From Leptolyngbya boryana PCC 6306 (GTDB taxonomy: Bacteria > Cyanobacteriota > Cyanobacteriia > Leptolyngbyales > Leptolyngbyaceae): a DNA stretch of 64,000 bases. The stretch spans positions 262,381 to 326,380 of the forward strand of contig NZ_KB731325.1 in NCBI RefSeq assembly GCF_000353285.1, read 5' to 3'. The position numbers were made by a program, and so were the translations under genes. This document shows, in pieces, positions 3,201-27,907 of this stretch; within the stretch, counting starts at the first letter, position 1, and every line of letters starts with the position of its first letter. The notes beneath the pieces were generated by a model, which made no database searches, was not told the origin of the DNA, and worked only from the letters and a program-made list of their open reading frames with translations.

Positions 3201-5754
3201 CGCCTTACGCCCTCAGCGAGTTCTAGAAATTGGGTGTGGCACCGGTCTGCTGCTGTTCCGCATTGCACCCGATTGCACTGAATATTGGGGCACAGATTTT
3301 TCGCACATCGCCTTGAGTTATGTAAAACGAGTTTTGAGTCTGCCGCAATATCAACTGCCCCAGGTTCGGCTATTGCAGCAGCAGGCAGACCAGTTGGAAG
3401 GGATTGAGCCACACAGGTTTGATACAGTCATTCTCAACTCGGTCATCCAATACTTCCCTAGCATTGACTACCTTCTCCGCGTTCTGGAACATGCTGTCAA
3501 TGCCGTTGCACCAGGAGGCACAATCTTTATCGGAGATGTGCGGAGTTTGCCATTACTAGAAGCATTCTACAAGTCTGTTGAACTCTACCAGGCTTCAGAG
3601 CTGCTCACGCCAGAGCAACTGCGCGATCGCATTCAACGCCGCCGACTTCAAGAACAGGAACTCGTGATCGATCCTGCCTTCTTCTCTGCCCTGCAACAGC
3701 ACTTGCCGCAAATCGAGCATGTCCAGATTCAGCCTAAGCAGGGACGCTACGAGAACGAGCTAAATCAGTTCCGCTATGACGTGACCTTGCGGATTGGGGC
3801 AAACGTGGAAGCGCAAACCGGAAAAACTGAGGAGCGCTCCTGGCAGACCTATGCCAACAATCCTCTACAGCAACAAACGACCCGTGAATTTGTTGGTCAG
3901 TTGCGCGACTATTTGCACCAAAAACTGCCCGACTACATGGTGCCTTCTGCCTTTGTCTTGCTAGAGGCACTGCCACTGACCCCCAACGGTAAACTCGATC
4001 GTCGATCGCTGCCTGCTCCCGATCGACAGGAATCAACCGAGACTGCAACCGCCCCTCGCACCCCAATCGAAGAAATGTTGAGCGGCATCTGGGCACAGGT
4101 TCTGGGGGTGGCAACCGTGGGAATCAATGATAACTTCTTTGAGTTGGGTGGGCATTCACTGCTGGCAACTCAGGTCATTTCGCGTGTGCGAGAAGTCTTC
4201 CAGGTGGAGTTACCTCTGCGCTGCTTGTTCGAGGCTCCCACGATCGCGGCTTTAGCCCAGCAAGTGAAAGTAGCGATTCAGTCGCAGCAAGGCTTAGAAG
4301 CCCCTCCGTTATTACCCGTTCCGCGCGATCGAGATCTGCCGCTTTCCTTTGCTCAACAGCGATTGTGGTTTCTGCATCAGCTTGCGTCGGATAGCCCGCT
4401 TTACAATGACCCGGTTGCACTGCGGTTAGGTGGTTTGCTCAACGTCACAGCGTTAAAGCAAAGTATTAACGAAATTGTGCGACGACACGAAGTTCTGCGA
4501 TCGCGCTTTGACACCGTCCAGGGGCAACCTGTGCAGATCATTACTCCTAGTTTGGATGTGCCGATCTCAATGGTTGATTTGGGAGATTTACCAGAGCCAG
4601 AGCGTGAAGCGGAAGCCCTGCGACTAGCAATTGAGGAAGCTGCCCGTCCCTTTGATCTAAGTGCCGATCCTCTGCTGCGGGTCACGTTACTGCGGTTGAG
4701 TGAAACCGATCATGTTGTCTTGCTAACCCTCCATCACATTGTTTCTGATGCATGGACAATGGGCGTTTTAGTACAGGAGTTATCAGCCCTCTATGCTGCT
4801 TTCTCGACCCATCAGCCTTCGCCCTTACCAGAGCTACCGATTCAGTATGCTGACTTTGCCCTATGGCAGCGGCAATGGTTACAGGGAGAAGTCCTACAGG
4901 CGCAGTTAAATTACTGGCGACAACAATTAGCAGCGTTACCCACCCTTGAACTCCCAACGGATAAACCACGTCCTCAAATCCAGAGCGATCGCGCAGCAAC
5001 CCAAACCTTTGTTGTGCCCAAAGAAGTGAGTCGATCTCTGATCCAACTCAGTCAGCAGGAAGGTGTCACGTTGTTTATGACGCTGCTCACCGCCTTTAAA
5101 ACACTACTTCACTGCTACACTGGACAAACGGATATCGGCGTAGGTTCCCCGATCGCGAACCGCAACCGAGCAGAGATCGAACATTTGATCGGCTTCTTTG
5201 TGAACACGCTGGTACTTCGCACCGATCTCTCCAACAATCCCACATTCCGTTCCTTGCTAGCACGAGTGCGAGAAACAACGCTCGGAGCTTATGCTCACCA
5301 GGATTTGCCATTTGAGAAGCTAGTCGAAGAACTGCGACCAGAGCGACAGCAGCAACATTCGCCGCTCTTCCGAGTTTGGTTTGTGCTACAAAATGCGCCG
5401 ATGCCTCCGTTAGAACTACCAGGTCTTACCCTGACACCGTTCGATGTTGATAGTGGAACGACCAAGTTTGATTTAGCGCTGTTCTTCTTTGAAACCAGTG
5501 AGGGACTAGAAGGCTGTTTTGAGTACAACGCTGATCTATTCGATACATCGACGATCGCTCAAATGGTGCACCAGTTTGAAGCACTGCTCCAGACGGTTGT
5601 GGCGCAGCCGGATATCCAGTTGAGTGTTCTATCGAATCAGGTTGCCAAAGCTGCCAAAGAACAGCAGCTTCTCCAGGCACAAGCAATTTCCGCCACAAAT
5701 TTACAACGACTTCAGCGCATCACCCGCAAACCGCTCAGTCGCGCTAAATCATGA
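268..5754 (+). CDS. NRPS, C-A-NMT-PCP-C
   Basis: A 1,828-residue synthetase acting in the cytoplasm. Domains in order: condensation (HHLLLDGW from residue 143); adenylation (YTSGSTGQPKG near 616, RGFRIELGE near 865); an N-methyltransferase inserted between adenylation motifs A8 and A10 (SAM site VLEIGCGTG at 985-993); A10 NGKLDRR near 1240; carrier domain with phosphopantetheine Ser1297; a second condensation domain with HHIVSDAW from 1489. Pocket residues read by eye are D-L-F-N-N-A-L-T-Y, resembling Ala/Gly codes, so N-methyl-Ala or N-methyl-Gly is inferred. The terminal condensation domain has no adenylation partner here. It must work with the next synthetase, which starts at 6834. The ATG at 268 overlaps the previous stop, and the reading frame is intact. 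Confidence 0.95.
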   Translation: MKMDNLEDIYELSPLQQGLLFHTIYAPQSGVYFEQFSWTLKGNLNATALRQAWQRVVDRHSILRTAFYWHDLEKPYQVVYGQIDLPWHQEDWRHFDPETQRDRLDEFLRVDRQTGFELSQAPLMRLALLRLADDAYHLVWSSHHLLLDGWSESLIFKEVYAFYEAFCQGQDLHLSQPRPFRDYIAWLQQQDLAQAEAFWRQRLKGFTAPTRLAVDRNAHNLPSQEEDYDWQRIDLSEATSIALQDLARQHQLTLNTLVQGAWALLLSRYSGESDVVFGVTSSGRPTDLAGVESMVGIFVNTLPLRVQVPPDASLLPWLQQILAQQMEVLQYEYSPLVQVQGWSDVSRNQPLFETCQVLENYPVDATVKNGVEGFEIQNPRSFEKTNEPLRLLAIPDAALRLELWYDTRRFDRATIHRMLGHLQTLLEGFIAHPEACLSALPMLSNEELQQLKVWGEGAVQPASGECIHHLFEAQVDRTPDNIAVICADQQLTYRELNDRANHLAHSLQTLGVKPETLVGICVERSLEMVVGVLAILKAGGAYVPLDPTYPAERVAFILQDAQISVLLTQQTLLSTLPDTPAQVVCLDAKTNFPETLEINQNPQSAITPANLAYVIYTSGSTGQPKGVAIEHRNTIALLHWAQSVFTADQLSGVLASTSLCFDLSVFELFAPLSVGGTAILAENALHLPTLAAAEQVTLINTVPSAIAALIEMNGIPKSVQTVNLAGEPLPHKLVRQLYERSHIQQVFNLYGPSEDTTYSTFARIDPQIEGTPPIGRPIANTQVYVLDQQLQPVPIGVPGELYLGGAGLARGYLNRPDLTAEWFIPNPFSAPDFADRLYKTGDLVRYLPDGHLEFLNRIDHQVKIRGFRIELGEIEAALSQHRAVQDAVVLAREDVPGEKRLVAYIVPQSLDRHASSQNLEDQQVLQWQMVYNDDRFRDTQTEWEPTFNISGWMSSYTNQPIPAEEMREWVDATVDRILALRPQRVLEIGCGTGLLLFRIAPDCTEYWGTDFSHIALSYVKRVLSLPQYQLPQVRLLQQQADQLEGIEPHRFDTVILNSVIQYFPSIDYLLRVLEHAVNAVAPGGTIFIGDVRSLPLLEAFYKSVELYQASELLTPEQLRDRIQRRRLQEQELVIDPAFFSALQQHLPQIEHVQIQPKQGRYENELNQFRYDVTLRIGANVEAQTGKTEERSWQTYANNPLQQQTTREFVGQLRDYLHQKLPDYMVPSAFVLLEALPLTPNGKLDRRSLPAPDRQESTETATAPRTPIEEMLSGIWAQVLGVATVGINDNFFELGGHSLLATQVISRVREVFQVELPLRCLFEAPTIAALAQQVKVAIQSQQGLEAPPLLPVPRDRDLPLSFAQQRLWFLHQLASDSPLYNDPVALRLGGLLNVTALKQSINEIVRRHEVLRSRFDTVQGQPVQIITPSLDVPISMVDLGDLPEPEREAEALRLAIEEAARPFDLSADPLLRVTLLRLSETDHVVLLTLHHIVSDAWTMGVLVQELSALYAAFSTHQPSPLPELPIQYADFALWQRQWLQGEVLQAQLNYWRQQLAALPTLELPTDKPRPQIQSDRAATQTFVVPKEVSRSLIQLSQQEGVTLFMTLLTAFKTLLHCYTGQTDIGVGSPIANRNRAEIEHLIGFFVNTLVLRTDLSNNPTFRSLLARVRETTLGAYAHQDLPFEKLVEELRPERQQQHSPLFRVWFVLQNAPMPPLELPGLTLTPFDVDSGTTKFDLALFFFETSEGLEGCFEYNADLFDTSTIAQMVHQFEALLQTVVAQPDIQLSVLSNQVAKAAKEQQLLQAQAISATNLQRLQRITRKPLSRAKS

Positions 5755-5761
5755 GGAAGTA

Positions 5762-6823
5762 ATGACACAACAAAACAGGGCAAAGCTAAGCCTAAACACA
5801 TTGGGAACTACGAGCCGAAAATCTGTCAAGGTTTCGCAGTCCGCGTTAATTCAAACCAGCCATTTACTAGGAACCTCAATTCCGCTCGTGATTCAGCCAA
5901 CGGTTGAGTCGATGGATCTGATTGCCTGGGCAACCTCGAATCGAGAGACGATCGAAGCGCTATTTCTTCAGCATCGTGCTTTGTTGTTTCGGGGTTTCAA
6001 GATCAAAAGTGCCGAGCAGTTTAATCAGTTTGTGCAAGCCACTGCTCAAGGAGAATTGTTGAGTTATCGCGATCGCTCCTCTCCCCGCCATGAAGTGGAA
6101 GGCAAGATCTACACCTCCACCGATTATCCGGCTCAAGAAAGAATCTTTCTGCACAACGAAGGAACTTACTGGTTAACCTATCCGCTCAAAATCTATTTCT
6201 GTTGTCTCACTGTTGCCGAACAAGGGGGCGAAACCCCGATCGCAGATACACAAAAAGTCTTGCAGCGTCTTGCACCCCAGATTCGCGATCGATTTACAGA
6301 AAAGAAAGTTCTGTATGTTCGCAACTATAACGATGGCTTTGGATTAACCTGGCAAACGGTCTTCCAAACCGACGACAAAGCTGTGGTAGAAGACTACTGC
6401 CGTCGCAATGCCATTGAGTTTGAGTGGAAACCAGGCGATCGACTCAGAACTCGTCAGGTGCGCGATGCGATCGCAAAACATCCGATCACAGGTGAACTAA
6501 CCTGGTTCAATCACGCCGCGTTTTTCCATATTTCAACCCTAGAACCCACCATTCGCCATGCGTTGTTAACAGAATTCAAAGAAGAAGAGTTACCGCAGAA
6601 CACCTATTACGGAGATGGTTCTGAGATCGAGCCGGAAGTCTTAGACGCGATTCGTGAAGCTTATCACCAGGAAACGATCATCTTTCCCTGGCAGGCTGGA
6701 GACATTTTGCTATTAAACAATATGCTCGTTGCCCACGGACGACGACCCTACAGCGGAGCCAGAAAAGTATTGGTGGGAATGGCAGAACCTTATTGCCACA
6801 GAGAATTCAACGTTGAGGAGTAG
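5762..6823 (+). CDS. TauD/SyrP-like Fe(II)/2-oxoglutarate hydroxylase, free-standing
   Basis: A 353-residue enzyme of the TauD/TfdA superfamily. Iron ligands are visible as H131-N-E133 and a distal H325 in AHGRRPY, followed by the 2-oxoglutarate-binding Arg in SGARK. The HxE form (not HxD) is found in clavaminate synthase- and SyrP-like members that hydroxylate amino acids, often on carrier proteins. The start at 5762 is chosen because AGGAAG lies just upstream and the gene begins 7 bp after the previous NRPS stop. A longer in-frame start at 5624 would overlap the NRPS by 131 bp. The gene lies immediately before a synthetase that begins with a degenerate C domain and has an Asx-like pocket, so beta-hydroxylation of that residue is inferred. 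It is a clear homologue of the TauD domain ending the protein at 10096-15789. Confidence 0.92.
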   Translation: MTQQNRAKLSLNTLGTTSRKSVKVSQSALIQTSHLLGTSIPLVIQPTVESMDLIAWATSNRETIEALFLQHRALLFRGFKIKSAEQFNQFVQATAQGELLSYRDRSSPRHEVEGKIYTSTDYPAQERIFLHNEGTYWLTYPLKIYFCCLTVAEQGGETPIADTQKVLQRLAPQIRDRFTEKKVLYVRNYNDGFGLTWQTVFQTDDKAVVEDYCRRNAIEFEWKPGDRLRTRQVRDAIAKHPITGELTWFNHAAFFHISTLEPTIRHALLTEFKEEELPQNTYYGDGSEIEPEVLDAIREAYHQETIIFPWQAGDILLLNNMLVAHGRRPYSGARKVLVGMAEPYCHREFNVEE

Positions 6824-6833
6824 AAAGGTCAAC

Positions 6834-9800
6834 ATGCAGAGTGCAAGTATAGACAGACAGCAAGACACGATCGAGGGCTATTCCCTTTCTCCGCAGCAGA
6901 AACATCTGTGGAAGTTGCAGCAAAGGGATCAGCACCAACCTTATCGCGTCCAGGTTTCGGTGCAGATTGATGGAGCCTTCGATCGCGAGAGACTCAAATT
7001 GGCGTTGCAGAACGTAGTCGATCGTCACGAAATTCTCCGAACTACATTCAAATGCTTACCCGGACTTACGCTCCCGCTTCAAGTGATAGGTGAGTGCGAT
7101 TTTTCTTGGTACAGCGAACTGAATTTGAGCGATCGTACTGCTCAAGTGCAAGTGAGCCAAATCGAAGCTCTCTTTCAAGAATTCGGTCAACTTCCGTTTG
7201 ACTTCGAGCAAGGATCGCTGTTTCGGGTTGCTTTAGTGATGCTGTCGGCTCAGAAGCACATGCTGTTGATCTGTTTACCTGCCCTCTGCGGAGATGGCGT
7301 GGCAGTCAAAAACTTAATTCGTGAGATCAGTCAGGTCTATCGTGCCTGCACCCAGAATCAGGAATTAACCGATGAGCCGTTACAGTATGCCGATATTGCA
7401 GCATGGCAAAACGAATTGTTAGACGCTGAAGAAAGCGAAACGGCAAAACGCTATTGGCGCAAGCTAGCGATCGCAGAAGCACTCACAGTCAAGTTGCCCT
7501 ATGAACGCTCGACTACTAAATCCTCTACTTTTCAGCCCCATGTTTTTAGTGCCACGATCGCTTCGCCATTAGTCGCCGAGATCAATGAATTTGCGAAAAC
7601 ATACGAGTGTTCTACAGAAACTTTCTTACTCACCTGCTGGCAAATTCTGCTGTGGCGCTTAACGGGGCAATCTGAGGTGGTGGTGAACACCGCCTTTAGC
7701 GGACGAAAGTACGAAGAACTAGAACCCGCGATCGGCACCTTCGTGAAATATTTGCCGCTATATGGGCAACTAAGCGATCGTGCTCAATTCATAAATGTGT
7801 TACGAAAAACCGAGGAGTTGCAGCGTGAAGCCGACACTTGGCAGGAATATTTTGCTTGGGAGGAAGAAGCGCGCGATCCATCCATCTTGCCCTTTGGCTT
7901 TGACTTTGAAACGCTGGATCTCACCAGTTGCGGTTCTGAGCTTTCCTGGTCAATTGATCGATTTTCTGTGTGTGTCGATCGCTGCAAACTCAGGCTTTCT
8001 TGTATCGATCGCCATGACGGTCTAACCACAGATTTTCATTATGATGCAACTGTCCTTCAAGCTGAGGACATCCAACGCTTGGCAGAACAGTTGCAGACGC
8101 TCCTCGAAAGCGTGATTTACAACCCGCAAGCAGAAATTTGTACCTTAAATATTTTGAGCGATCGTGAACGGCATCAACTGCTCGTAGCGTTCAATCACAC
8201 GCAATTCGATTATCCAAATCAATGCTTTCATCATCTGTTTGAACAACAGGTTGATCATACTCCAAACAACATTGCAGTTGTCTGTGGTGACCAGCATCTG
8301 ACCTATGCTGAACTCAATGCTCGTGCCAATCAATTAGCCCATTATCTGCGATCGCTCGGTGTCAAATCTGAAACGCTTGTCGGAATCTGTGTTGAACGCT
8401 CTCTAGACATGCTGGTTGGGATTCTCGGCATTTTAAAGGCAGGGGGAGCGTATGTGCCCTTTGACCCGGCTTATCCCCAAGCGCGCATCGCCTTTATGTT
8501 AGAAGACACCCAGGCTCCTGTCGTGCTGACCCAGGCGCGACTCCTTGATCGCTTGCCTGACACTTCAGCCCAACTCGTTTGTCTCGATTCCGCTTGGGAG
8601 ACGATCGAACGATCGAGTGCAGAAAACCCGCCATCCTCGCTCACACCAGACCACCTGGCTTATGTGATCTATACTTCCGGCTCGACTGGAAAACCCAAAG
8701 GAACCTTAATTCCGCATCGAGGACTCGTCAATTACTTGTGCTGGTGTACGCAAGCGTATGGGGTTGAGCAGGGGGAGGGGGCATTAGTTCATTCGTCGAT
8801 CGCGTTTGATGCCACGATTACGGGGCTATTTGCGCCCTTACTGGTCGGCTCGAAAGTCGAACTACTGCCCGAAGACTTGGGAATTGAAGCGTTAGCCATT
8901 GCGCTCCAAACAAAGTCGAACTATAGCTTGATCAAAATTACCCCTGCACAACTCGAACTACTGGCACAACAGCTTCCTGCTGAAACCGCGTCGCATCGAA
9001 CCCAGATGTTCGTGATTGGCGGTGAAAATCTGACGGCACAGCACATTGCTTTCTGGCAAACTGCCGCTCCTGAAACGGCTTTGGTGAATGAGTATGGTCC
9101 AACAGAAACCGTAGTCGGCTGCTGTGTCTACTGGGTTCCTTCCGATCAACCCTCGACAGGTTCCATTCCAATCGGTCGCCCCATTGCCAACACTCAGCTT
9201 TATTTGCTCGATCGCAATCTTCAACCAGTTCCCACCGGGTTTCCCGGTGAGCTATACATCAGTGGCGCAGGAGTCGCGCGGGGCTATCTCAATCGTCCTG
9301 AACTCACAGCAGAACGCTTTATTCCTAACCCCTTCTGCTCAGGTTCTCGGTTGTATAAAACCGGTGACCTGGCTCAATTTCTTCCCAACGGCACGATCGA
9401 ATATTTGGGGCGTATCGATCATCAAGTCAAAATTCGCGGCTTCCGCATTGAGCTAGGCGAAATTGAAACTGTTCTGGCTCAGCATCCAGCCGTGCAGCAA
9501 GCAGTTGTCATCGATCGCGAAGATACTCCTGGAGATCAACGCCTGGTTGCCTATCTCGTTCCTGCACCTTCTGCCACGCCCAACGCCTCCATTCTCCGAC
9601 CGTTTCTTCAGGAAAAACTTCCTGCCTATATGGTGCCGTCTGCGTTTGTGGTGTTAAAGAAGCTGCCGCTCACCTCTAATGGCAAAGTCGATCGCAAAGC
9701 CTTACCCGCACCCGAACAAGTCAGACCCGAGCTAGAAGCTGCCTATATTGCGCCTCGCAATTCGATCGAATCAACCCTAGCCGCAATTTGGGCGGAAGTT

Positions 9801-10103
9801 TTGGGACTCGAACAAATCGGTGTGTATGACGACTTCTTTGACTTGGGCGGACATTCCCTCTTGCTCACGCAAGTCACCTCTCGCATTCACAATGCTTTGG
9901 GGATCGACTTACCCATGCGTCAACTGTTTGATGCCCCCACGATCGCTGCTTTAGCCGAGGTGATTGCTGACAAACAACTAGAGCAAGCAGACCATGACCT
10001 CCTGGCTCACCTGATAGCAGACTTAGAGCAATTGCCGGAAGCTGACGTTAAAGCTGCCCTGATTGCTGAAACATCTTCCACCGGGAGCATTGACCATGAG
10101 TGA
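6834..10103 (+). CDS. NRPS, degenerate C (interface-like)-A-PCP
   Basis: A 1,089-residue single-module synthetase. The N-terminal 460 residues follow a condensation fold, but the catalytic HHxxxD is replaced by PALCGD (149-154): both His are gone and the Asp is kept. Interface domains of this kind are reported in siderophore synthetases that make beta-hydroxyaspartate, where they are thought to recruit the hydroxylase. Adenylation follows (YTSGSTGKPKG near 613, RGFRIELGE near 868, NGKVDRK near 949), then a carrier domain with Ser1008. The pocket reads D-A-T-K-V-G-E-V-G, closest to Asn/Asp codes. The ATG at 6834 has AAAGG 5 bp upstream and lies 10 bp after the hydroxylase stop. The in-frame start at 6729 would run through the hydroxylase gene. 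With no active condensation domain of its own, it depends on the C domain ending the protein at 268-5754. Confidence 0.93.
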   Translation: MQSASIDRQQDTIEGYSLSPQQKHLWKLQQRDQHQPYRVQVSVQIDGAFDRERLKLALQNVVDRHEILRTTFKCLPGLTLPLQVIGECDFSWYSELNLSDRTAQVQVSQIEALFQEFGQLPFDFEQGSLFRVALVMLSAQKHMLLICLPALCGDGVAVKNLIREISQVYRACTQNQELTDEPLQYADIAAWQNELLDAEESETAKRYWRKLAIAEALTVKLPYERSTTKSSTFQPHVFSATIASPLVAEINEFAKTYECSTETFLLTCWQILLWRLTGQSEVVVNTAFSGRKYEELEPAIGTFVKYLPLYGQLSDRAQFINVLRKTEELQREADTWQEYFAWEEEARDPSILPFGFDFETLDLTSCGSELSWSIDRFSVCVDRCKLRLSCIDRHDGLTTDFHYDATVLQAEDIQRLAEQLQTLLESVIYNPQAEICTLNILSDRERHQLLVAFNHTQFDYPNQCFHHLFEQQVDHTPNNIAVVCGDQHLTYAELNARANQLAHYLRSLGVKSETLVGICVERSLDMLVGILGILKAGGAYVPFDPAYPQARIAFMLEDTQAPVVLTQARLLDRLPDTSAQLVCLDSAWETIERSSAENPPSSLTPDHLAYVIYTSGSTGKPKGTLIPHRGLVNYLCWCTQAYGVEQGEGALVHSSIAFDATITGLFAPLLVGSKVELLPEDLGIEALAIALQTKSNYSLIKITPAQLELLAQQLPAETASHRTQMFVIGGENLTAQHIAFWQTAAPETALVNEYGPTETVVGCCVYWVPSDQPSTGSIPIGRPIANTQLYLLDRNLQPVPTGFPGELYISGAGVARGYLNRPELTAERFIPNPFCSGSRLYKTGDLAQFLPNGTIEYLGRIDHQVKIRGFRIELGEIETVLAQHPAVQQAVVIDREDTPGDQRLVAYLVPAPSATPNASILRPFLQEKLPAYMVPSAFVVLKKLPLTSNGKVDRKALPAPEQVRPELEAAYIAPRNSIESTLAAIWAEVLGLEQIGVYDDFFDLGGHSLLLTQVTSRIHNALGIDLPMRQLFDAPTIAALAEVIADKQLEQADHDLLAHLIADLEQLPEADVKAALIAETSSTGSIDHE

Positions 10104-13100
10104 TCTAAGCCAACGCCTTGCTGCCCTCTCACCAGAAAAGCGGGCATTGCTGCTGCAACGACTGCATCAGACGAGCCAGCACCCAACCCCAACTCAGATT
10201 CAACGACAGGCACGATCGACGAACACGTTCCCGCTGTCTTTTGCCCAACAGCGCTTGTGGTTTCTCAATCAGCTAGAACCCGGTAACGCTTTCTACAATA
10301 TGCCTGCGGCTATTCTGCTGAAGGGACACCTGAATATTGCAGCACTCGAACACAGTTTAGACGCACTAATTCAGCGTCATGAAGCCTTACGGACAAACTT
10401 TACCACCGTAGCAGGAGATCCTGTTCAGGTAATTGCAACCGCTCGATCGCACAATTTGTCGATCGTTGATCTGCATCACTGTTCAGAACCTGAACAAACC
10501 CAGAGAGTGCAACAACTCGCTCAAGCAGAAGCCCAACTTCCCTTTGATTTAGGGAACGATTCGCTCCTGCGGGTTTGCTTACTCCAACTGAGCGAGACGC
10601 AGCACGTCCTTCTGTTCACGCTGCATCACATCATTGCCGATGCCTGGTCATTGGGTGTGTTGATCCAAGAATTTGCCCAAGCCTACAGTGCTTTTTCGAC
10701 AGGCGAGTCTCTTTCACTGCCAGAACTACCGATTCAGTATGCCGATTTTGCCGTGTGGCAACGGCAGTGGCTTCAAGGCGATGTCCTAGAGACTCAACTC
10801 CACTATTGGCAACAGCAACTCCAGCACGCCCCACCTCTGCTCGAACTGCCCACGGATCGTCCCCGTCCTCCGGTGCAGACTTTTCGGGGAGCCTATCAAT
10901 CTCTCATACTACCCAACGCCTTGATGGAGGAACTGAAAGCCTTCAGCCGTCGTGAGGATACAACTCTCTTTATGACGATGCTGGCAGCCTTTAAGACCTT
11001 GCTGTATCGCTATACTGGGCAAACTGATCTTCTAGTGGGTTCCCCGATCGCGAACCGCAATCGCCTGGAAGTGGAGAATATCATTGGGGTGTTCATTAAC
11101 ACTTTGGTTCTTCGCACTGACGTTTCAGGCAATCCCACGTTTCGAGAGCTATTGGCTCAAGTTCGCAAAACCACACTCGACGCATACGCGCATCAAGACT
11201 TGCCATTTGAAAGACTGGTTGAGACACTGCACCTCGAACGCAACTTGAGCTATAACCCAGTCTTTCAGGTAATGTTCCAGCTTCAGAACGCACCGATGGC
11301 TGACCTGGAACTCCCCGGTTTAACGCTGAGTAACCTAGAAACTGCTGGAGAAACTACTCAGTTCGATCTGAGCCTCAACATGGCAGAAACCGAAGCAGGG
11401 TTGCAAGCCCTGATCGAGTACAGCACAGATTTATTTGATGATGAGACGATCGCTCGAATGTTAGGACACTTCCAAACCTTACTAGAAGGAATTGTCGCCC
11501 ATGAGAACGATCGTCTCTCAAATTTACCTTTACTGACAAAGGCAGAACAGCACCAATTCCAGGAATGGAACCAGACTCAAGTTGAATTTGCCCAAGTCCC
11601 CATTCACCAGTTATTTGAGGCACAGGTCAAACGAACCCCGGACGCGATCGCTGCTGTATTCGAGCAGGAACACCTGACTTATCAAGCCCTGAACGATCGA
11701 GCCAACCAACTGGCAAGTCATTTGCAAACGTTAGGCGTTCGTCCCAATGGGTTAGTGGGAATTTGTGTCGATCGCTCCCTAGAAATGCTGGTCGGCATTC
11801 TCGCAATTCTCAAGGCAGGTGGGGCTTATCTCCCGATCGATCCGGCATATCCGCAAGACCGTATCGCCTTCATGCTAGAGGATGCAGACGTTGAGATTTT
11901 GCTGACTCAATCGCATCTCTCCCCTCCGCTTACCCAATCTAATCCAAAAGTTCTCTACCTCGATTCTGATTGGACAACGCTCTCCCCCGGTTCCCCGCTC
12001 CCCTGTTCTCCCGACCACCTCGCCTATGTGATCTACACCTCTGGCTCTACGGGCAAGCCCAAGGGAGTGCAAATCGAACACCATTCGCTGTCCAACTTTA
12101 TCCAATCACTTCAGCAACACCTCAACCTCACCTCCCAAGATTTTTTCTTCTCGGTTACGACCATCACCTTTGACATTGCCGCGCTAGAACTCTTTCTGCC
12201 ATTGACAGTGGGTGCCCGTGTCGTGATTGCCAGTCGCGCAGTCGCCTGTGATGGGGTGCGGTTATCTGAAGCGTTAGTCCAATCCGGCACCACGATCATG
12301 CAAGCAACGCCTGCGACTTGGCGGCTTCTACTGGCATCAGGATGGCAGGGTAACGCACAACTGAAAGTGCTTTGTGGTGGAGAGGCACTGCAAGCGGATC
12401 TGGCAAGTCAGTTACGGTCTAAGTGTGCTGCCCTCTGGAATCTGTATGGTCCTACCGAAACCACCATCTGGTCTACGATTCATGCGGTTGAATCTGACAA
12501 CGAACCCGTTCCCATCGGATGCCCGATCGCCAATACCGAGATTTACGTGTTGGATCGCGATCGACAACTTGTTCCAGTCGGGGTCACGGGTGAACTCTAC
12601 ATCGGAGGTGCAGGGTTAGCCAGAGGCTATCTCAATCGTCCAGAATTAACCGCAGATCGGTTTCTCCAGCTTGAACTGCCAGAGCAGCAGCAAACACGAC
12701 TCTATCGAACTGGAGATCTCGCCCGCTACCGCTCGGATGGCACGATCGAGTGTTTGGGACGCATCGACCATCAGGTAAAAGTTCGGGGCTTCCGCATCGA
12801 ACTCGGTGAGATTGAATCCGTATTGTGTCAACATCCCACCGTACAGCAGGCAGCCGTTACCGTCAGAGAAACCGAATTCGGCGATCAACGCATCATTGCT
12901 TACGTTGTCCCTGTCTCCGCGTCTCATTCTGAATGGCGCAGCTTTCTCAACACAAAGCTCCCTGACTACATGGTGCCTGCTGCTTTTGTACGGCTAGAAG
13001 CATTACCTTTAACCCCAAACGGCAAAGTCGATCGCAAAGCACTTCCTGCACCGAGTGAGATTCCATCTGAGCTAGACCCAACACTTGAAGCCGCACAGAC

Positions 13101-15789
13101 ACCCGTTGAAGAAATGCTAGCTTCTCTGTGGTCGCAGATTCTCGGAGCCGAGATAGGCATTCACGATGACTTCTTCGCCTTTGGTGGACACTCCCTCTTA
13201 GCCACACAACTCATGTCACGCGTGCGGGATGTGTTCAATGTGGAGTTGCCGTTGCGTGTGCTGTTTGAAACTCCTACGATCGCGCGATTGGCACCGCAGA
13301 TCGAGAAGGCAATGAAAACCAGACAACAGCTTGCCATTCCGCCTCTGCAACCCGTCGATCGTACTCAAGCATTGCCTCTATCCTTTGCCCAACAACGGCT
13401 GTGGTTTCTCAGTCAGCTTGCACCCGATAGCGCACTCTATAACTTTTCTGCTCACGTTCGCTTAGCCGGAACGCTCAATATATCTGCACTAGAGCAAAGT
13501 GTGAACGAAGTCGTGCGACGCCATGAAGCCCTGCGAACTGCCTTTGCTGTCGTAGAAGGACAACCCATCCAGATCATTGCTCCGACTTTGACCCTGCCCG
13601 TCCCGGTTGTAGACCTGCGATCTCTCTCCCCTGCCGAGCAGCAGACGGCTGTCCAACACCTAGTTGATGAGGAAGACCGTAAGCCCTTTGATCTAACCTG
13701 TTGTCCACTACTGCGGGTAACAGTGCTCCGGTTGAATGCAACAGAGCATGTCTTGCTATTGACCATGCACCACATCATTTCGGATGGTTGGTCTATGGGA
13801 GTGCTACTGCGTGAATTAATGGCATTGTACGAAGCGTTTTGTACAGGTCAGCCTTCTCCCCTGCCTGCGTTACCGATCCAATACGCTGACTTTGCTGTGT
13901 GGCAGCGACAATGGTTGCAGGGAGACGTGCTAGACCAGCAGCTTCACTACTGGAAACAGCAGCTTTTAGGGGGCAATTTGCCGCCGTTGAAGTTACCGAC
14001 GAAGCCATCCCAACCTAAAAGCCAGAATTACCAGGGCAAAAGCCATACCAGTGAACTCTCGGTCGATCTCTCTAGACAGCTTCAATCCCTCAGTCGTCAA
14101 GAGAATGTCACTCTATTCATGACGCTGCTGGCAGCTTTGCAAACGTTGCTGCATCGCTACACCCATCAGGATGACATTGTGGTGGGCACCGACATTGCTA
14201 ATCGCACCCATAGCGAAACAGAATCGCTCATCGGTTTCTTCGTCAATCTCTTGGTGCTGCGATCAGATATGCGCGGCAATCCTAGCTTTCGGGAACTGCT
14301 GCAACAAGTCCGGGAAGTCACACTCAACGCCTATGCTCATCAAGACCTACCTTTTGACAAACTGGTCGAAGAATTGCAACCAGAGCGCAACTTACATCAG
14401 ACTCCGCTCTTTCAGGTGTTGTTCGTGTTGCAAAATACGCCCGTTCCGACGATCGAGCTAACGGATCTGACGCTGCATCCTCTCGACACCCAAGAGAACG
14501 ACTTATCGAAATTTGATTTAGCCCTCTTTGTGACAGAGACGGAACCCGCCATTCAAATAGCCTGGAAGTTCAACGTCGATCGCTTTGACCCTGACACGAT
14601 CGCTCAGATGGCAAATCACTTCACTGCTTTACTTGCCAGTATTGTCGCTGCACCCGAAGCACGACTTAGCACATTGAGTCTGCAAACCGCAGCCGAACCC
14701 AAACCACTTCATCAACCCCGCGATCGCAAAAACATGAGTTTCAGTAAATTTAAATCCATTCAACCAAAAGCCATTAGCGTACCCGAAACGGGACTCGTGA
14801 CCACAAGCTATCTCCAGCCTGGAGAACCCCTACCCCTCGTTGTACAGCCTAATCTAGAAGATATCGATCTAATTGGTTGGGCAAAGAACAACCGGGGCTT
14901 GCTTGAAACGGAGTTATTAAAGCATGGTGCAATTCTCTTTCGCGGATTCAATGCGGCTTCAGTCCCAGAGTTTGAGCGGTTTGCCCAAACGATTTGCCCA
15001 GCGCTATTTGGGGAATACGGCGACTTGCCCCGCGAAGAGGTTAGCCAAAACGTCTACACCTCTACTCCCTATCCGGCTGATAAAGCCATTTTGTTCCACA
15101 ACGAAAGTTCGCATCTGCACTGCTACCCAATGAAGATCTGGTTTTTCTGTGTGCAGCCTGCCCAATCGGGGGGTGAAACGCCGATCGTAGATTGCCGAAA
15201 AGTTTATCAACTGCTCGATCCCAAGTTACAAGAACACTTTGCCCAAAAGCAACTGATGTACGTGCGGAACTATACCGATGGACTCGATGTTAGTTGGAGC
15301 CGATTCTTCCACACCACGGATCGATCCGTTGTAGAATCTTACTGCCACAATCATGGCATCGAGTTTGAGTGGAAAGCTAACAATGGCTTGAGAACTCGCG
15401 AAATTCGTCCAGCAGTCGCAACGCATCCCAAAACTGGGGAAACGGTCTTCTTCAATCAAATTCAACTGCATCACTTGTCTTGTCTCGATCTCAGTGTCCA
15501 AGAGTCTCTGCTTTCCCTGTTTGGTGAGGAAAACTTGCCGCGTCAGGTCTACTATGGGGACGGAACACCAATTGAAGACTCAGTCGTTGAAGAAGTTTGT
15601 GAGGCGTATCGGCAAGCCACCGTTCAATTCCCTTGGCAGAAAGGTGACATCCTGATGCTAGATAACATGCTGAGCGCTCATGGGCGTAATCCTTATGGGG
15701 GTGCCCGCAAGATTGTGGTGGCAATGGGAGAACTCGTTAGTCCCGCAGAGACAGCAAGATTGGAGGCAGGCAATGCAGTTGCAAGATAG
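10096..15789 (+). CDS. NRPS, C-A-PCP-C fused to TauD hydroxylase
   Basis: A 1,897-residue protein. Condensation (HHIIADAW from 177); adenylation (YTSGSTGKPKG near 647, RGFRIELGE near 897, NGKVDRK near 975); carrier Ser1033; second condensation (HHIISDGW from 1225); then a complete TauD-like domain from about 1,550 with iron ligands H1668-N-E1670 and H1862, and an Arg at 1871. The pocket D-I-L-Q-L-G-L-I-W is the classical glycine code. The start at 10096 has GGGAG 8 bp upstream and overlaps the previous stop by 8 bp; another in-frame ATG exists at 10063. An in-frame ATG at residue 1547, just before the hydroxylase domain, matches where the free homologue starts, suggesting a gene fusion. The last C domain and hydroxylase appear to serve the Asp module of the next protein. 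Confidence 0.95.
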   Translation: MSDLSQRLAALSPEKRALLLQRLHQTSQHPTPTQIQRQARSTNTFPLSFAQQRLWFLNQLEPGNAFYNMPAAILLKGHLNIAALEHSLDALIQRHEALRTNFTTVAGDPVQVIATARSHNLSIVDLHHCSEPEQTQRVQQLAQAEAQLPFDLGNDSLLRVCLLQLSETQHVLLFTLHHIIADAWSLGVLIQEFAQAYSAFSTGESLSLPELPIQYADFAVWQRQWLQGDVLETQLHYWQQQLQHAPPLLELPTDRPRPPVQTFRGAYQSLILPNALMEELKAFSRREDTTLFMTMLAAFKTLLYRYTGQTDLLVGSPIANRNRLEVENIIGVFINTLVLRTDVSGNPTFRELLAQVRKTTLDAYAHQDLPFERLVETLHLERNLSYNPVFQVMFQLQNAPMADLELPGLTLSNLETAGETTQFDLSLNMAETEAGLQALIEYSTDLFDDETIARMLGHFQTLLEGIVAHENDRLSNLPLLTKAEQHQFQEWNQTQVEFAQVPIHQLFEAQVKRTPDAIAAVFEQEHLTYQALNDRANQLASHLQTLGVRPNGLVGICVDRSLEMLVGILAILKAGGAYLPIDPAYPQDRIAFMLEDADVEILLTQSHLSPPLTQSNPKVLYLDSDWTTLSPGSPLPCSPDHLAYVIYTSGSTGKPKGVQIEHHSLSNFIQSLQQHLNLTSQDFFFSVTTITFDIAALELFLPLTVGARVVIASRAVACDGVRLSEALVQSGTTIMQATPATWRLLLASGWQGNAQLKVLCGGEALQADLASQLRSKCAALWNLYGPTETTIWSTIHAVESDNEPVPIGCPIANTEIYVLDRDRQLVPVGVTGELYIGGAGLARGYLNRPELTADRFLQLELPEQQQTRLYRTGDLARYRSDGTIECLGRIDHQVKVRGFRIELGEIESVLCQHPTVQQAAVTVRETEFGDQRIIAYVVPVSASHSEWRSFLNTKLPDYMVPAAFVRLEALPLTPNGKVDRKALPAPSEIPSELDPTLEAAQTPVEEMLASLWSQILGAEIGIHDDFFAFGGHSLLATQLMSRVRDVFNVELPLRVLFETPTIARLAPQIEKAMKTRQQLAIPPLQPVDRTQALPLSFAQQRLWFLSQLAPDSALYNFSAHVRLAGTLNISALEQSVNEVVRRHEALRTAFAVVEGQPIQIIAPTLTLPVPVVDLRSLSPAEQQTAVQHLVDEEDRKPFDLTCCPLLRVTVLRLNATEHVLLLTMHHIISDGWSMGVLLRELMALYEAFCTGQPSPLPALPIQYADFAVWQRQWLQGDVLDQQLHYWKQQLLGGNLPPLKLPTKPSQPKSQNYQGKSHTSELSVDLSRQLQSLSRQENVTLFMTLLAALQTLLHRYTHQDDIVVGTDIANRTHSETESLIGFFVNLLVLRSDMRGNPSFRELLQQVREVTLNAYAHQDLPFDKLVEELQPERNLHQTPLFQVLFVLQNTPVPTIELTDLTLHPLDTQENDLSKFDLALFVTETEPAIQIAWKFNVDRFDPDTIAQMANHFTALLASIVAAPEARLSTLSLQTAAEPKPLHQPRDRKNMSFSKFKSIQPKAISVPETGLVTTSYLQPGEPLPLVVQPNLEDIDLIGWAKNNRGLLETELLKHGAILFRGFNAASVPEFERFAQTICPALFGEYGDLPREEVSQNVYTSTPYPADKAILFHNESSHLHCYPMKIWFFCVQPAQSGGETPIVDCRKVYQLLDPKLQEHFAQKQLMYVRNYTDGLDVSWSRFFHTTDRSVVESYCHNHGIEFEWKANNGLRTREIRPAVATHPKTGETVFFNQIQLHHLSCLDLSVQESLLSLFGEENLPRQVYYGDGTPIEDSVVEEVCEAYRQATVQFPWQKGDILMLDNMLSAHGRNPYGGARKIVVAMGELVSPAETARLEAGNAVAR

Positions 15790-18700
15790 AGTGATTCAGG
15801 GATTTCGACTTTCTCCACAGCAAAAACGGCTTTGGGAAGTGCAACAAGAGAACGGCATCTATCGCGTTCAATGCACTGTGCGGATTGACGGTGATCTGAA
15901 TTTAGGAGTGCTGAAATCTGCCCTTCAACAAATCATCGATCGCCACGAAATTCTGCGGACTGATTTTGTCCGTCCGGGTGGGCTAAAAACTCCCATTCAG
16001 GTCATTGCAGAAAGTGGTCAACTCGTATGGCACAAGATCGATTTGCGAGGCGGATCTGTCCAGCAACAACAGACCCACATCAATGCTTTATTTGAGCAAG
16101 ATCGATGCCAAGCATTTGATGTGGAGCATGGATCAGGGCTGCGATCTACCTTGTTAACCCTGTCAGCCCAACAACATATTTTGTTGCTCAGTTTGCCTGC
16201 TTTGTGCGCTGATGCCAGAACACTGAAAAATCTCGTTCAAGAGGTGGGTCAGTCTTATCAGGCTTGCCTTCGGGGTGAAACACTTGATGACGAAATTGTG
16301 CAATATACGCAGTTCTCAGAATGGCAAAATCAATTCCTAGAAGATGAGGATGCCCACATCGGTCACACCTACTGGCAGCAACAAGACTTCTCAAGAATTA
16401 CCACTCTAAAGTTGCCCTTTAAAGCAAAATCCATTCGTTCCGCTCCCTTTGATGTTCGCGCTTTGGAGCAGCAGATCGCACCGGAAACGATCGCTAAAAT
16501 CAACGCACTCACCCAACAGCACAACACGACCCCAGCCACATTTTTTCTTGCTTGCTGGATGATTCTGCTCTGGCGCTTCACTCAACAAGGCGAGATCATC
16601 GTCGGTACTGCCTGTGAGGGTCGCAATGATGAGGAACTAGAAACTGCGATCGGTCTATTTGCCAAATATCTACCGCTGCGGTGCTGCCTGCAAGAACAGG
16701 AGACATTTGATCAACTGCTACGATCGATTGATCAAACAGTTCAGAATCATTTGCAATGGCAGGATTACTTTACTGGGAACCATTTAGAGCAACAATCTGA
16801 ACGTGGATGGAAAGCACTTCCATTTTGTTTCGATTTTGATGATCAACCTGCGGTATACGCTGCTGACGGATTAGTGTTTACGCTTGAACGGCACTCTCCT
16901 TACACAGAACGCTTCAAGCTCAACCTCTCCTGCACTCAAACCGCAGAGGCTTTGTTCACCCGATTTCACTATGACGCGACTCTGTTTAGTGATGAAGACA
17001 TTCAGCAATTAGGGGAACATTGGCAGGTGTTAATTGAGGGAATTGTTGCAAATCCCCAAAAAACGATCGCTCAACTCCCCATTCTCAGCGATCGACAGCG
17101 CCATCAACTGCTTGTTGAATTTAACAATACCCAAACTCCTGTCTCAAAGTTCTGCATGCATAAGCGATTTGAGGCACAAGTCGATCGCACTCCGAATCAG
17201 ATTGCTGTCATCTTTGAAGACCAACAACTGACCTACGCCGAACTGAATACTCGCGCCGCTCAACTTGCTTGCGATTTACAAGCATTAGGAGTTAAGCCCG
17301 AAGTCCGGGTTGGAATTTGCTTGGAGCGATCGTGTGATTTCATCATTGCGATGCTTGCCGTTCTTAAAGCAGGAGGAGCCTATGTGCCCCTCGATCCTGC
17401 TTTTCCTCGCGAGCGCTTAGCCTTCATGATGCAAGATGCCCAGATCTCAGTGCTGCTGACTCAAACGCTTCTGCTCAAGTCAATTCCTGACATCACGGCT
17501 CCAGTGATCTGCTTAGACAATCGACCCGATTTCTCAGATTCGCCCCTACTCTCCCACCGTCCTACTCCCTCCAACTTGGCTTATGTGATCTATACCTCTG
17601 GTTCCACAGGTAAGCCCAAAGGCGTGGCAGTGGAACATCAGCAACTTTGCAATTATGTGCAGGGCATTCTGGAACGCTTGAACCTGCCCGAAGGATCTAG
17701 CTTTGCTACGGTGTCTACGATCGCGGCTGATTTGGGAAACACAGCAATTTTCTCGGCTCTTTGCACCGGGGGCTGTCTTCACATCATTTCTGCCGATCGC
17801 GCCACAACTCCGCAAGCTTTCGCAGACTATTGCCGCTACCATGCGATCGATTGCCTCAAAATCGTGCCCTCTCACCTGGAGGCGTTGCTCGCTAGTGGAA
17901 ATGCTGATATTTTGCCTCGTCAACGGTTAATTTTGGGTGGGGAAGCTTGCAACTGGAGTTTAATTGAAACGATCCAGCAGCTAGCTCCTAACTGTGTCAT
18001 TCTGAATCACTACGGACCCACAGAAACAACGATCGGTGTACTGACCTATCAAGTGGAAGACCTTCCTACTCATGCAAGAACGAACTCTGTTTTGCTGGGT
18101 CGCCCGATCGCGAACACACAGGCTTATGTCCTCGATCAACAGTTGCAGCCTGTCCCGATCGGCATTCCTGGTGAACTCTATATCAGTGGTGACAACCTAG
18201 CACGAGGTTATCTGAACCAGCCCCAATTAACCGCAGAACGCTTTATCCATCACCCATTTAGTCAGGACGGACGATTGTACAAAACAGGTGATTTAGTACG
18301 ATACCGAACGGATGGAAACCTTGAGTTTTTAGGGCGAATGGATGATCAGGTTAAAATTCGAGGGTTTCGAGTTGAATTAGGCGAAATCGAGACAGCCTTA
18401 TGCCAGCATCCCGATATTCAACAAGCGATCGTTCTACTTCGCTCCGATGTGGCAGGCAACCCGCGCCTAATTGCCTATGTCATTTCCCATTCTCAGGCAA
18501 CCTCTACCACCCATGACTGGCGCAATTTCTTGAAAGCCCAAATGCCCGAATATATGCTGCCCTCAGCCTTTATTCGGTTAAAAACCCTTCCGCTCACGCC
18601 GAACGGTAAAATCGATAAGCAAGCCTTACCCATTCCCGATCTGTTCAAATCAGATCAGGAAACGACCTTTGTGCCACCCCGCGAAGCGTTAGAACTGCAA

Positions 18701-19753
18701 CTCACCCAAATTTGGGAAGACCTGCTGAATGTGCGACCCATCAGTGTGACGGATAATTTCTTCGATCTAGGGGGACATTCACTTTTAGCAGTTCGGCTCA
18801 TTGCTCAAATTGAAAAACAGTTCCAGCACAAATTGCCGTTGTCGAGCTTTCTTCAAGCTGCAACGATCGAGCATCTTGCAGGAATTCTCCGACAACAACC
18901 GCAAGCCTGGGAGCGATCGCCTCTGATTAAAATTCAATCGCACGGAACAAACTCGCCCTTGTTTTTCATGCACCCGATCGGAGGCAATGTGATTTGCTAT
19001 GCCAGTCTGGCAAGCCATCTCGGTTCTGAGCAACCGTTTTATGGGGTTGAAGCGCCTGGTTTATATGGTGAGGAAGTTCCTCTAGAATCCGTTGAAGCGT
19101 TAGCAGCCCACTACATTCAAGCGTTAAAAACCATTCAACCTCAAGGACCGTACTATTTGGGGGGCTGGTCAATGGGCGGAATCGTGGCATTTGAAATGGC
19201 ACAACAATTGCAACAACAAGGTGAAGCGATCGCGCTACTTGCCCTATTAGATAGCACCCCACCGCTCTCAAACACCCCATCTCCAACAGACAATACTAAC
19301 TCTCTGGAAGATGCGAGACTGTTAGCTGATCTAGCAGAATCCACTGCACACTTTTTTGGTAAACAGTTGTCGATTTCACCCACTGAACTCCAATCGCTAG
19401 ACCCTGAGCAGCAGTTGAATTATGTTTTAGAGGTGATGAAGGCTGCAAATTTTGTTCCTCCAGATATTCAGCCAAGTCAAATTCAGGCATTTCTTCAGGT
19501 GTATAAGAGCAATGCTCGCGCCCTAATGCGATACGTGCCGAAGCGTTATTCCGGTCAAATCACCCTCTTTCGATCCAGTCAGCCACTCCCAGAGCATCAA
19601 ACCATTTCTGACACGATTTCCAGTTGGGCTTCGCTGTCAACTCAACCGATCGACATTCACACTGTTCCTGGAGACCATACCACGATGCTTGCTGAACCCA
19701 ACGTTCAGGTTTTAGCAGCACAGATCAAAGATTGCTTGAAACGCACCGCCTAA
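15773..19753 (+). CDS. NRPS, degenerate C (interface-like)-A-PCP-TE, terminal module
   Basis: A 1,326-residue terminating synthetase. The N-terminal condensation-like domain has PALCAD (142-147) in place of HHxxxD, the same change as in the protein at 6834-10103. Adenylation follows (YTSGSTGKPKG near 607, RGFRVELGE near 863, NGKIDKQ near 944) with pocket D-L-T-K-I-G-H-I-G, one conservative change from the classical Asp code. The carrier Ser is residue 1003. The C-terminal type I thioesterase has GWSMGG with Ser1133 and a late His in GDHTTM, and would release the peptide by hydrolysis or cyclization. GGAGG lies 6 bp before the ATG at 15773, and the gene overlaps the previous one by 17 bp. An in-frame start at 15680 has no such site and would lengthen the overlap. 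Confidence 0.94.
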   Translation: MQLQDRVIQGFRLSPQQKRLWEVQQENGIYRVQCTVRIDGDLNLGVLKSALQQIIDRHEILRTDFVRPGGLKTPIQVIAESGQLVWHKIDLRGGSVQQQQTHINALFEQDRCQAFDVEHGSGLRSTLLTLSAQQHILLLSLPALCADARTLKNLVQEVGQSYQACLRGETLDDEIVQYTQFSEWQNQFLEDEDAHIGHTYWQQQDFSRITTLKLPFKAKSIRSAPFDVRALEQQIAPETIAKINALTQQHNTTPATFFLACWMILLWRFTQQGEIIVGTACEGRNDEELETAIGLFAKYLPLRCCLQEQETFDQLLRSIDQTVQNHLQWQDYFTGNHLEQQSERGWKALPFCFDFDDQPAVYAADGLVFTLERHSPYTERFKLNLSCTQTAEALFTRFHYDATLFSDEDIQQLGEHWQVLIEGIVANPQKTIAQLPILSDRQRHQLLVEFNNTQTPVSKFCMHKRFEAQVDRTPNQIAVIFEDQQLTYAELNTRAAQLACDLQALGVKPEVRVGICLERSCDFIIAMLAVLKAGGAYVPLDPAFPRERLAFMMQDAQISVLLTQTLLLKSIPDITAPVICLDNRPDFSDSPLLSHRPTPSNLAYVIYTSGSTGKPKGVAVEHQQLCNYVQGILERLNLPEGSSFATVSTIAADLGNTAIFSALCTGGCLHIISADRATTPQAFADYCRYHAIDCLKIVPSHLEALLASGNADILPRQRLILGGEACNWSLIETIQQLAPNCVILNHYGPTETTIGVLTYQVEDLPTHARTNSVLLGRPIANTQAYVLDQQLQPVPIGIPGELYISGDNLARGYLNQPQLTAERFIHHPFSQDGRLYKTGDLVRYRTDGNLEFLGRMDDQVKIRGFRVELGEIETALCQHPDIQQAIVLLRSDVAGNPRLIAYVISHSQATSTTHDWRNFLKAQMPEYMLPSAFIRLKTLPLTPNGKIDKQALPIPDLFKSDQETTFVPPREALELQLTQIWEDLLNVRPISVTDNFFDLGGHSLLAVRLIAQIEKQFQHKLPLSSFLQAATIEHLAGILRQQPQAWERSPLIKIQSHGTNSPLFFMHPIGGNVICYASLASHLGSEQPFYGVEAPGLYGEEVPLESVEALAAHYIQALKTIQPQGPYYLGGWSMGGIVAFEMAQQLQQQGEAIALLALLDSTPPLSNTPSPTDNTNSLEDARLLADLAESTAHFFGKQLSISPTELQSLDPEQQLNYVLEVMKAANFVPPDIQPSQIQAFLQVYKSNARALMRYVPKRYSGQITLFRSSQPLPEHQTISDTISSWASLSTQPIDIHTVPGDHTTMLAEPNVQVLAAQIKDCLKRTA

Positions 19754-19774
19754 TTTGCACTAACCATTAAAGTG

Positions 19775-20530
19775 ATGCACAGTAACTGGATCATCCGCTC
19801 AAAGCCCAATCCTCAAGCTCGACTGCGATTGTTCTGCTTTCCCTATGCCGGGGGTAGCGCGTCCATCTTCCGCTCGTGGTCGGATCAATTACCACAAAAC
19901 ATCGAAGTGTGTGCTGTCGAACTTCCAGGACGGGGCACACTGATGCGCTTAGCACCTTACACCCAGTTAAAACCATTAGTCGAAGCGATCGCACAATCGC
20001 TGTTACCCAATTTGAATCAACCTTTTGCGCTATTTGGTCATAGCATGGGCGCATTGATTAGCTTTGAACTGGCGCGTTTCCTGCGTCAAGCGTATGGATT
20101 AACTCCCCGTCATCTGTTTGTCTCTGGTCGTGCTGCTCCTTACATTCCCGATCGAGATCCACCCATCTATACCTTGCCTGACGCTGCCTTCATTCAGGAG
20201 CTACGTCGGCTGAACGGCACCCCTGAAGCGGTCTTGCAAAACCAGGAACTCATGCAACTGCTCACTCCGATTCTACGGGCAGATTTTGCCGCGATCGACA
20301 CCTATCGCTATCAGCCTGAACCAGCCTTAGGGTGCCCGATCACAGCGCTCGGTGGCTTACAGGATTTAGAAGTGAGCCGAGACGATCTTGAGGCTTGGCA
20401 AACCCAAACGATCGCGCCCTTTCAGATCCAGTTATTTCTGGGGAATCACTTCTTTCTGCACTCGGCTCAATCGCTTCTATTAAAAGCGATCGCCCAACAA
20501 TTACAAGCGGTTGAGCCAGCGATCGGTTAA
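19775..20530 (+). CDS. Type II thioesterase of the NRPS cluster
   Basis: A 251-residue alpha/beta hydrolase with the nucleophile elbow GHSMG (Ser90) and a C-terminal GNHFF holding the catalytic His. This is the layout of stand-alone editing thioesterases that clear misprimed or stalled carrier domains in NRPS/PKS pathways. It begins with the FPYAGGSASIF motif usual in this family. It starts 21 bp after the terminal synthetase; a GTG directly upstream (19772) is an equally possible start. Its position right after the TE-bearing module fits a housekeeping role for this assembly line. Confidence 0.92.
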   Translation: MHSNWIIRSKPNPQARLRLFCFPYAGGSASIFRSWSDQLPQNIEVCAVELPGRGTLMRLAPYTQLKPLVEAIAQSLLPNLNQPFALFGHSMGALISFELARFLRQAYGLTPRHLFVSGRAAPYIPDRDPPIYTLPDAAFIQELRRLNGTPEAVLQNQELMQLLTPILRADFAAIDTYRYQPEPALGCPITALGGLQDLEVSRDDLEAWQTQTIAPFQIQLFLGNHFFLHSAQSLLLKAIAQQLQAVEPAIG

Positions 20531-20564
20531 CAAAGACAACTCTTTATTCTCTAGTATTCATGCA

Positions 20565-22878: not shown

Positions 22879-22901
22879 CCTAAAATGTGTTCGAGGGAAA
22901 A

Positions 22902-27872: not shown

Positions 27873-27873
27873 G

Positions 27874-27907
27874 AACTTCGGCAGGTCATTCTCACTCAAC
27901 TTCGGCA
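27874..27907 (-). repeat. IS21 left-end repeats (two units)
   Basis: AACTTCGGCA at 27874-27883 and 27898-27907, 24 bp apart, are the inverse of the right-end units. They are probable binding sites for the IS21 transposase. The first unit abuts the ISL3-family insertion. Confidence 0.7.

Follow-up and report, generated by a model that had tools for sequence, protein, structure and literature searches.

Why should a biosynthetic assembly line be cut twice at the same place, with a hydroxylase set into each cut? This question is raised by a stretch of 64,000 nucleotides from the cyanobacterium Leptolyngbya boryana PCC 6306 (contig NZ_KB731325.1, positions 262,381 to 326,380; the whole stretch is called the window here), in which five successive genes encode four nonribosomal peptide synthetase (NRPS) proteins and a free TauD-family hydroxylase (Table 1). 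The original prediction for this locus held that a condensation (C) domain, a hydroxylase and a new protein beginning with a degenerate C domain, an adenylation (A) domain and a peptidyl carrier protein (PCP) follow one another twice, and this order was borne out, with all open reading frames (ORFs) and domains present: the hydroxylase is free at 5762-6823 and lies behind a C domain within 10096-15789, and the degenerate domains opening the next proteins carry PALCGDG and PALCADA at the aligned HHxxxDG motif. The ORF starts at 6834 and 15773 were taken from the annotated L. boryana plasmid pLBX. The explanation that best accounts for the data, and that we hold to be very likely, is a cyanochelin-like siderophore cluster in which the degenerate domain, termed here the interface (I) domain (a C-like domain without HHxxxDG), positions its partner hydroxylase at split Asn/Asp modules; the window would hold the 3' half of this cluster, on an L. 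boryana-type plasmid.

The degenerate domains of the window match the published interface domain: they belong to the C superfamily (PF00668, 231 and 236 bits), have lost HHxxxDG and stand beside a siderophore β-hydroxylase. They share 42% identity with one another and no more than 33% with any of the four C domains in these proteins, while the C domain ahead of each TauD retains an intact HH (HHIVSDA, HHIISDG) and is the last C of the NRPS part of its protein. AlphaFold2 predicts a C-domain fold for the I domain of 15773-19753 (mean pLDDT 89.4), and a Foldseek search with this model returned C domains as the best PDB matches, the X domain 4tx3 appearing at rank 23 (TMq 0.80); none of the 55 PDB sequences listed carries the name interface domain. 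An ordinary predicted fold would also suit a passive relic, that is, a C domain that has lost its function and persists between proteins as a spacer or communication terminus, without binding a hydroxylase. The motif site speaks against this, since over 62 units it has Asp in 62/62 and Pro at the first position in 55/62 while HH occurs in 0/62, so that the site is conserved, though with a new motif; mere decay of a C domain was rejected for the same reason.

The search for other clusters of this order, which the original prediction had proposed, was run with TauD loci picked by similarity to the TauD of the window (a first contig scan gave 14 loci, all cyanobacterial) and with six domain profiles built from the fetched loci; "just upstream" refers to the previous domain detected, and other genes may intervene. 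It yielded 83 TauD places, 72 of them cyanobacterial and the remaining 11 spread over eight plasmid records from other phyla. With the two places of L048 left out as belonging to the species of the window, a C domain (of either C type), TauD and I stand in sequence at 65 of 70 cyanobacterial places, 35 of them fused, the exceptions being L075, L077, L085, L086 and L087. Because the order recurs so widely, the arrangement in the window is not due to chance, and the proposed unit of C, hydroxylase, interface, A and PCP is real and recurrent. Gaps of more than 600 bases occur at only 2 of the 65 places. Outside the cyanobacteria the order was found at 4/11 places (free in L088; fused in L090, L091 and L094), the other 7/11 being arranged otherwise. 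From these loci a set of 62 complete units was drawn, which includes the two of the window and two from other phyla; six units with a short domain were dropped along with the two of L048.

A reciprocal survey starting from the I domain gave a similar picture. In 386 cyanobacterial genomes, with the best four candidates at most scored per genome, 53 I-type places in 25 genomes reached at least 403 bits, the next score being 300 bits, and a TauD from the similarity-picked set lay no more than 1.5 kb upstream in 50/53. Among Nostocaceae, with the best eight candidates at most scored per genome, an I-type domain occurs in 127 of the 217 genomes. A further set was formed from the best 80 I places listed, excluding genomes already studied (six are probably repeats of loci from the first contig scan); TauD was the domain just upstream in 71 of these, 50 times free and 21 times fused, with gaps above 600 bases in 6/71. 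All 142 of 142 distinct I domains above 380 bits open their ORF, and TauD and I were never found in one ORF (0/62 complete units, 0/71 further pairs). The place of the cut, which the original prediction took to be the same in each aspartate module, is therefore confirmed by the position of I; the aspartate part of that statement does not hold for the first module, which has an Asn-type A domain (see below). One locus has TauD, I and A each on a separate ORF (L061:14029-16412, genome G334).

If the I domain docks the hydroxylase, the two would be expected to be inherited as matched pairs. Pairwise distances over the 62 units correlated most strongly between TauD and I (0.83), followed by I and A (0.75), TauD and A (0.74), and TauD and C (0.54). 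With 121 units the values were 0.78 for TauD and I, 0.64 for I and A, and 0.63 for TauD and A, and nearest neighbours agreed in 74, 62 and 58 cases, respectively; identical I sequences were removed only for the count of 142 domains and for the correlations over 121 and 77 units. TauD and I are thus more closely matched than I and A, although the latter pair shares a polypeptide. When I domains were shuffled within genomes (77 units, 34 genomes), the correlation of TauD with I, 0.70 for the true pairs, averaged 0.17 and did not exceed 0.33, and 0/1000 shuffles were as high, which argues that the pairing is specific rather than a reflection of species history. The matching within genomes also counts against a passive relic, and the docking idea gains new, indirect support from these sequence comparisons.

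The hydroxylases themselves appear intact, with the HxE...H triad and the Arg invariant in 62/62 units, including both of the window; against NCBIfam these two gave only weak matches to trimethyllysine dioxygenase. They are 46-47% identical to each other, fall into different clades and have nearer relatives elsewhere, and a recent tandem duplication of a TauD-module pair within the cluster was rejected on these grounds. The fused enzyme (14740-15786) belongs to a starred clade of 25 rows in the TauD tree, mostly fused, that includes the fused enzyme of cyanochelin B; its C-terminal position and the Asp-type A domain that follows are those of an NRPS-fused siderophore Asp β-hydroxylase (IbetaHAsp-like). 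The free enzyme lies in a starred five-row clade (100/99) whose members precede I domains and include two His-type units, and within it joins L052 and L053 in a three-row group (89/60); it did not show the grouping of a stand-alone TbetaHAsp, as judged by proxy in a tree without a named TbetaHAsp reference. The free TauD proteins of L091, L092, L094 and L095, which have no adjacent I, form a starred clade of their own apart from the free TauD of the window, and the idea that free cyanobacterial hydroxylases are of this proteobacterial type was rejected. At three places (L061, and behind L019 and L029) one stop lies within the TauD match, pointing to a frameshift, a pseudogene or a match overrunning the gene end.

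At each split module the C domain closes one polypeptide, the next opens with an I domain joined to A-PCP, and the β-hydroxylase fills the gap, free at the first module and fused behind C at the second. In the mechanism that we propose, the A domain would load its amino acid onto the PCP, the I domain would keep the matching hydroxylase in place at the aminoacyl-PCP, Fe(II)/2-oxoglutarate-dependent hydroxylation would take place at the β carbon, and the upstream intact C domain would then condense the peptide onto the hydroxylated residue. AsnO-type enzymes hydroxylate the free amino acid, and hydroxylation before loading, with gene order reflecting co-regulation only, would suit the proteobacterial plasmid enzymes just described that lack an adjacent I. 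For the window it seems a distinctly improbable course, given that the second copy is fused C-terminally to an NRPS protein, that the hydroxylase adjoins an I-A-PCP module and that the A codes are those of unhydroxylated residues.

Which residues would be hydroxylated was judged from the A-domain codes. Code extraction was checked on cyanochelin B, where seven codes fit the published order Cys, Phe, Gly, Asp, Ser, Asp, Gly. An eighth A-like domain near the start of that line is presumed to be an acyl ligase. In this check the non-Asp codes were read with their usual meanings. The second module of the window (DLTKIGHIGK) is Asp-type and close to the DLTKIGHVGK of both β-hydroxy-Asp modules of cyanochelin B. 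The code of the first, DATKVGEVGK, appears in PMC3547906 as a prediction for Asn. In the A-domain tree the Asp-type (37 rows), Glu-type GE (17 rows) and DSALIAEVWK (8 rows) domains each form one clade, and the first A domain of the window sits in the 17-row GE clade, apart from the Asp-type rows; in the pocket core it shares 68-75% identity with four GE-type A domains and 30-36% with the six others compared. Of the two aspartate modules claimed, one therefore probably falls away: the second stands as Asp-type, and the first is Asn-type by code, tree and pocket core.

For these reasons a product with two β-hydroxy-Asp residues is not the first expectation, and one β-hydroxy-Asn together with one β-hydroxy-Asp is probably the better prediction from the codes. 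That both modules load Asp nevertheless has perhaps the strongest case among the alternatives, though we would not favour it: a pair of β-hydroxy-Asp residues would be a better iron chelator than a single one, the TauD and I of the first module group with the Asp-type units L052 and L053, and PMC12628792 states that the cluster of L. boryana NIES-2135 could encode such a cyanochelin-like siderophore. Set against this are the three observations on the first A domain and the fact that cyanochelin B uses the same DLTKIGHVGK in both of its β-hydroxy-Asp modules. The code DLFNNALTY of 268-5754 is of the Ala type. With TE standing for thioesterase, the codes would give N-methyl-Ala, β-hydroxy-Asn, Gly and β-hydroxy-Asp for this region of the product, followed by TE release.

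The sequence of the first module suggests how an Asn-type A domain could have come to lie behind a hydroxylase that groups with those of Asp-type units. The N-lobe of its I domain (62, 56%) and its PCP (65, 69%) are nearest to L052 and L053, two Asp-type free units that are neighbours of the first I domain in the I tree as well (a group of three rows, 99), and the segment A5-A8 is nearest to Glu-type units, a pattern that suggests a swap of the A core under a retained hydroxylase-interface pair. A point against such a swap is that the middle and C-lobe of the same I domain are 35-42% identical to L052 and L053, as they are to most others compared. Across the 142 I-headed modules the codes were Asp in 62, Asn in 33, DSALIAEVW in 33, Gln-like in 5 and Ser-like in 1, with 1 misaligned and 7 without a readable A domain; DSALIAEVW is described in PMC12283262 as a His code said to accept β-hydroxylation. 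The Gln-like modules (DAWQFGLID or DAWQYGLID) are those of L151, L173, L186, L192 and L129, and TauD lies just upstream in 4/5, a second I intervening in L129; β-hydroxy-Gln would be implied.

Several points weigh against an I domain that positions its hydroxylase. We infer docking from matched inheritance, an indirect support that could instead reflect joint selection for substrate, and in the fused units (n=47) the correlation of TauD with A (0.95) exceeds that of TauD with I (0.84), which weighs against a special bond between TauD and I there. The assignment of Asn rather than Asp rests on sequence, and no isolated L. boryana product was found in the literature. Furthermore, an I domain does occur without TauD, contrary to the notion that it never would. 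In the first survey 3/53 places had no TauD just upstream: one slot in G278 holds an asparagine-synthetase-like protein and a PF05118 Asp/Asn hydroxylase (L126:5570-8249), a second slot in G278 holds a methyltransferase and an asparagine-synthetase-like protein (L127:6813-9511), and at L128 no such gene adjoins on its strand, a TauD lying about 19 kb off on the opposite strand. Three more I places, one in G431 and two in G443, also have no adjacent TauD. In the further set 9/80 had no TauD directly upstream; one of these consists of two tandem I genes behind a TauD, and the other eight (L138, L139, L140, L161, L163, L178, L180 and L196) show C followed by I-A-PCP with no other domain detected between. 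Such empty slots would suit a passive relic, yet in view of the retained motif and the matched pairs we regard that explanation as unlikely. All eight genomes carry a TauD elsewhere, 5/8 on the same contig at a distance of about 12-22 kb, so the I domain of these places may be served in trans by such an enzyme or may be idle.

As a tentative extension of the positioning role, hydroxylase and I domain may form a portable cassette over exchangeable A cores, one lineage serving Asp, Asn and His; here the core of an Asp-type module would have been replaced by an Asn-type core to give a siderophore-like peptide with β-hydroxy-Asn and β-hydroxy-Asp, and the gap between C and I would be a slot for trans-acting tailoring enzymes, as the loci of G278 may illustrate. 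The data yield rules that can be tested: the I domain begins its protein, each hydroxylase is matched to its I domain, and the A cores below such a pair seem to be exchanged. These rules tell which hydroxylase serves which module, and they predict for L. boryana a product other than the suggested structure with two β-hydroxy-Asp residues.

Both the architecture and the idea of positioning by an interface domain are already published, and the L. boryana cluster has been named in print as possibly cyanochelin-like. The closest known system is the cyanochelin B cluster of Leptolyngbya sp. NIES-3755 (plasmid 2, AP017310.1), which likewise has a fused and a self-standing β-hydroxylase, each ahead of an I-A-PCP protein (PMC12628792). 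Both clusters are plasmid-borne and combine a polyketide synthase (PKS)/NRPS line with iron transport genes. They differ in that both hydroxylated modules of cyanochelin B are Asp-type, its fused hydroxylase acts first and its line ends in a reductive domain, whereas in the window the free hydroxylase precedes the fused one and belongs to an Asn-type module, and the line finishes with a TE, an acylase gene lying nearby; the two free hydroxylases also belong to different groups in the TauD tree. Reportedly, Reitz et al. described the interface domain alongside NRPS-fused hydroxylases in PNAS in 2019 and proposed a docking role. The window shares with those systems a C-superfamily domain without HHxxxDG beside a siderophore β-hydroxylase, and a hydroxylase fused at an NRPS C terminus; it differs in that an I domain also follows a free hydroxylase, and I-headed modules span Asp, Asn, His and Gln-like codes. 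Among the classes TBH_Asp, IBH_Asp and IBH_His and two cyanobacterial ones named in a recent paper (eLife RP109154, PMC12971057), the last two, CyanoBH_Asp1 and CyanoBH_Asp2, are metallophore hydroxylases drawn from cyanochelin clusters, a setting like that of the window. Siderophore β-hydroxylases and interface domains are also detected as module parts by antiSMASH 8. Among the papers listed in the library searched on interface domains with hydroxylases and on β-hydroxy-His or β-hydroxy-Asn cyanobacterial siderophores, none described I-headed Asn or Gln modules, as judged from titles and the beginnings of abstracts. A further parallel is the X domain of glycopeptide NRPSs (4tx3), which also has the C fold and recruits an oxygenase to the assembly line in trans. 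The X-domain partner is a P450 that acts on the completed peptide, whereas the TauD partner of I is presumed to act on a single aminoacyl-PCP, and ordinary C domains rank above the X domain in the fold search.

The genomic setting is consistent with a siderophore. The window is part of a contig of 521,445 bases. Copies of the free TauD that are 100% identical occur on four L. boryana plasmids, and the window has ParA- and ParB-like genes (matches under curated cut-offs), so that a plasmid from L. boryana or a close relative is the most likely replicon. Upstream lie biosynthetic genes for a protein that joins an acyl-ligase-like (FAAL-like) part to PCP and C, for the C-A-PCP protein that continues it, for a KS-AT-KR-ACP protein and for two more NRPS proteins, together with transport genes for two FecCD permeases, a periplasmic binding protein, a major facilitator superfamily (MFS) transporter and a second TonB receptor. 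A PKS/NRPS line, hydroxylases and iron transport genes, the combination characteristic of a cyanochelin-type cluster, are all present.

Table 1. Genes of the split modules and of the adjoining part of the cluster (MT, methyltransferase; TE, thioesterase)
Feature	Position	Strand	Domains and basis
NRPS protein C-A-MT-PCP-C	268..5754	+	Pfam, domain borders; last C 4306-5637 (HHIVSDA)
Free TauD-family hydroxylase	5762..6823	+	PF02668, 164 bits
NRPS protein I-A-PCP	6834..10103	+	I 6864-8159 (PALCGDG at HHxxxDG); A 8217-9713 (DATKVGEVGK, Asn-type); PCP 9771-9965
NRPS protein C-A-PCP-C-TauD	10096..15789	+	A DILQLGLIWK (Gly-type); C 13366-14688 (HHIISDG); fused TauD 14740-15786
NRPS protein I-A-PCP-TE	15773..19753	+	I 15785-17089 (PALCADA); A 17144-18637 (DLTKIGHIGK, Asp-type); PCP 18686-18889; TE 18953-19750
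Type II thioesterase	19772..20530	+	Pfam, pLBX annotation
Penicillin-amidase-family acylase	20511..22706	+	PvdQ model 252 bits, below its 950-bit cut-off
AMIN-TonB-dependent siderophore receptor	22887..25493	+	TIGR01783 232.5 bits, cut-off 223.5

An acyl chain may be cleaved off the product by the PvdQ-related acylase that the cluster encodes. Directly past the cluster, on the minus strand at 26165-31341 and 36898-37944, lie transposase genes (ISL3, IstB with a Mu-like partner, IS4 and another DDE type).

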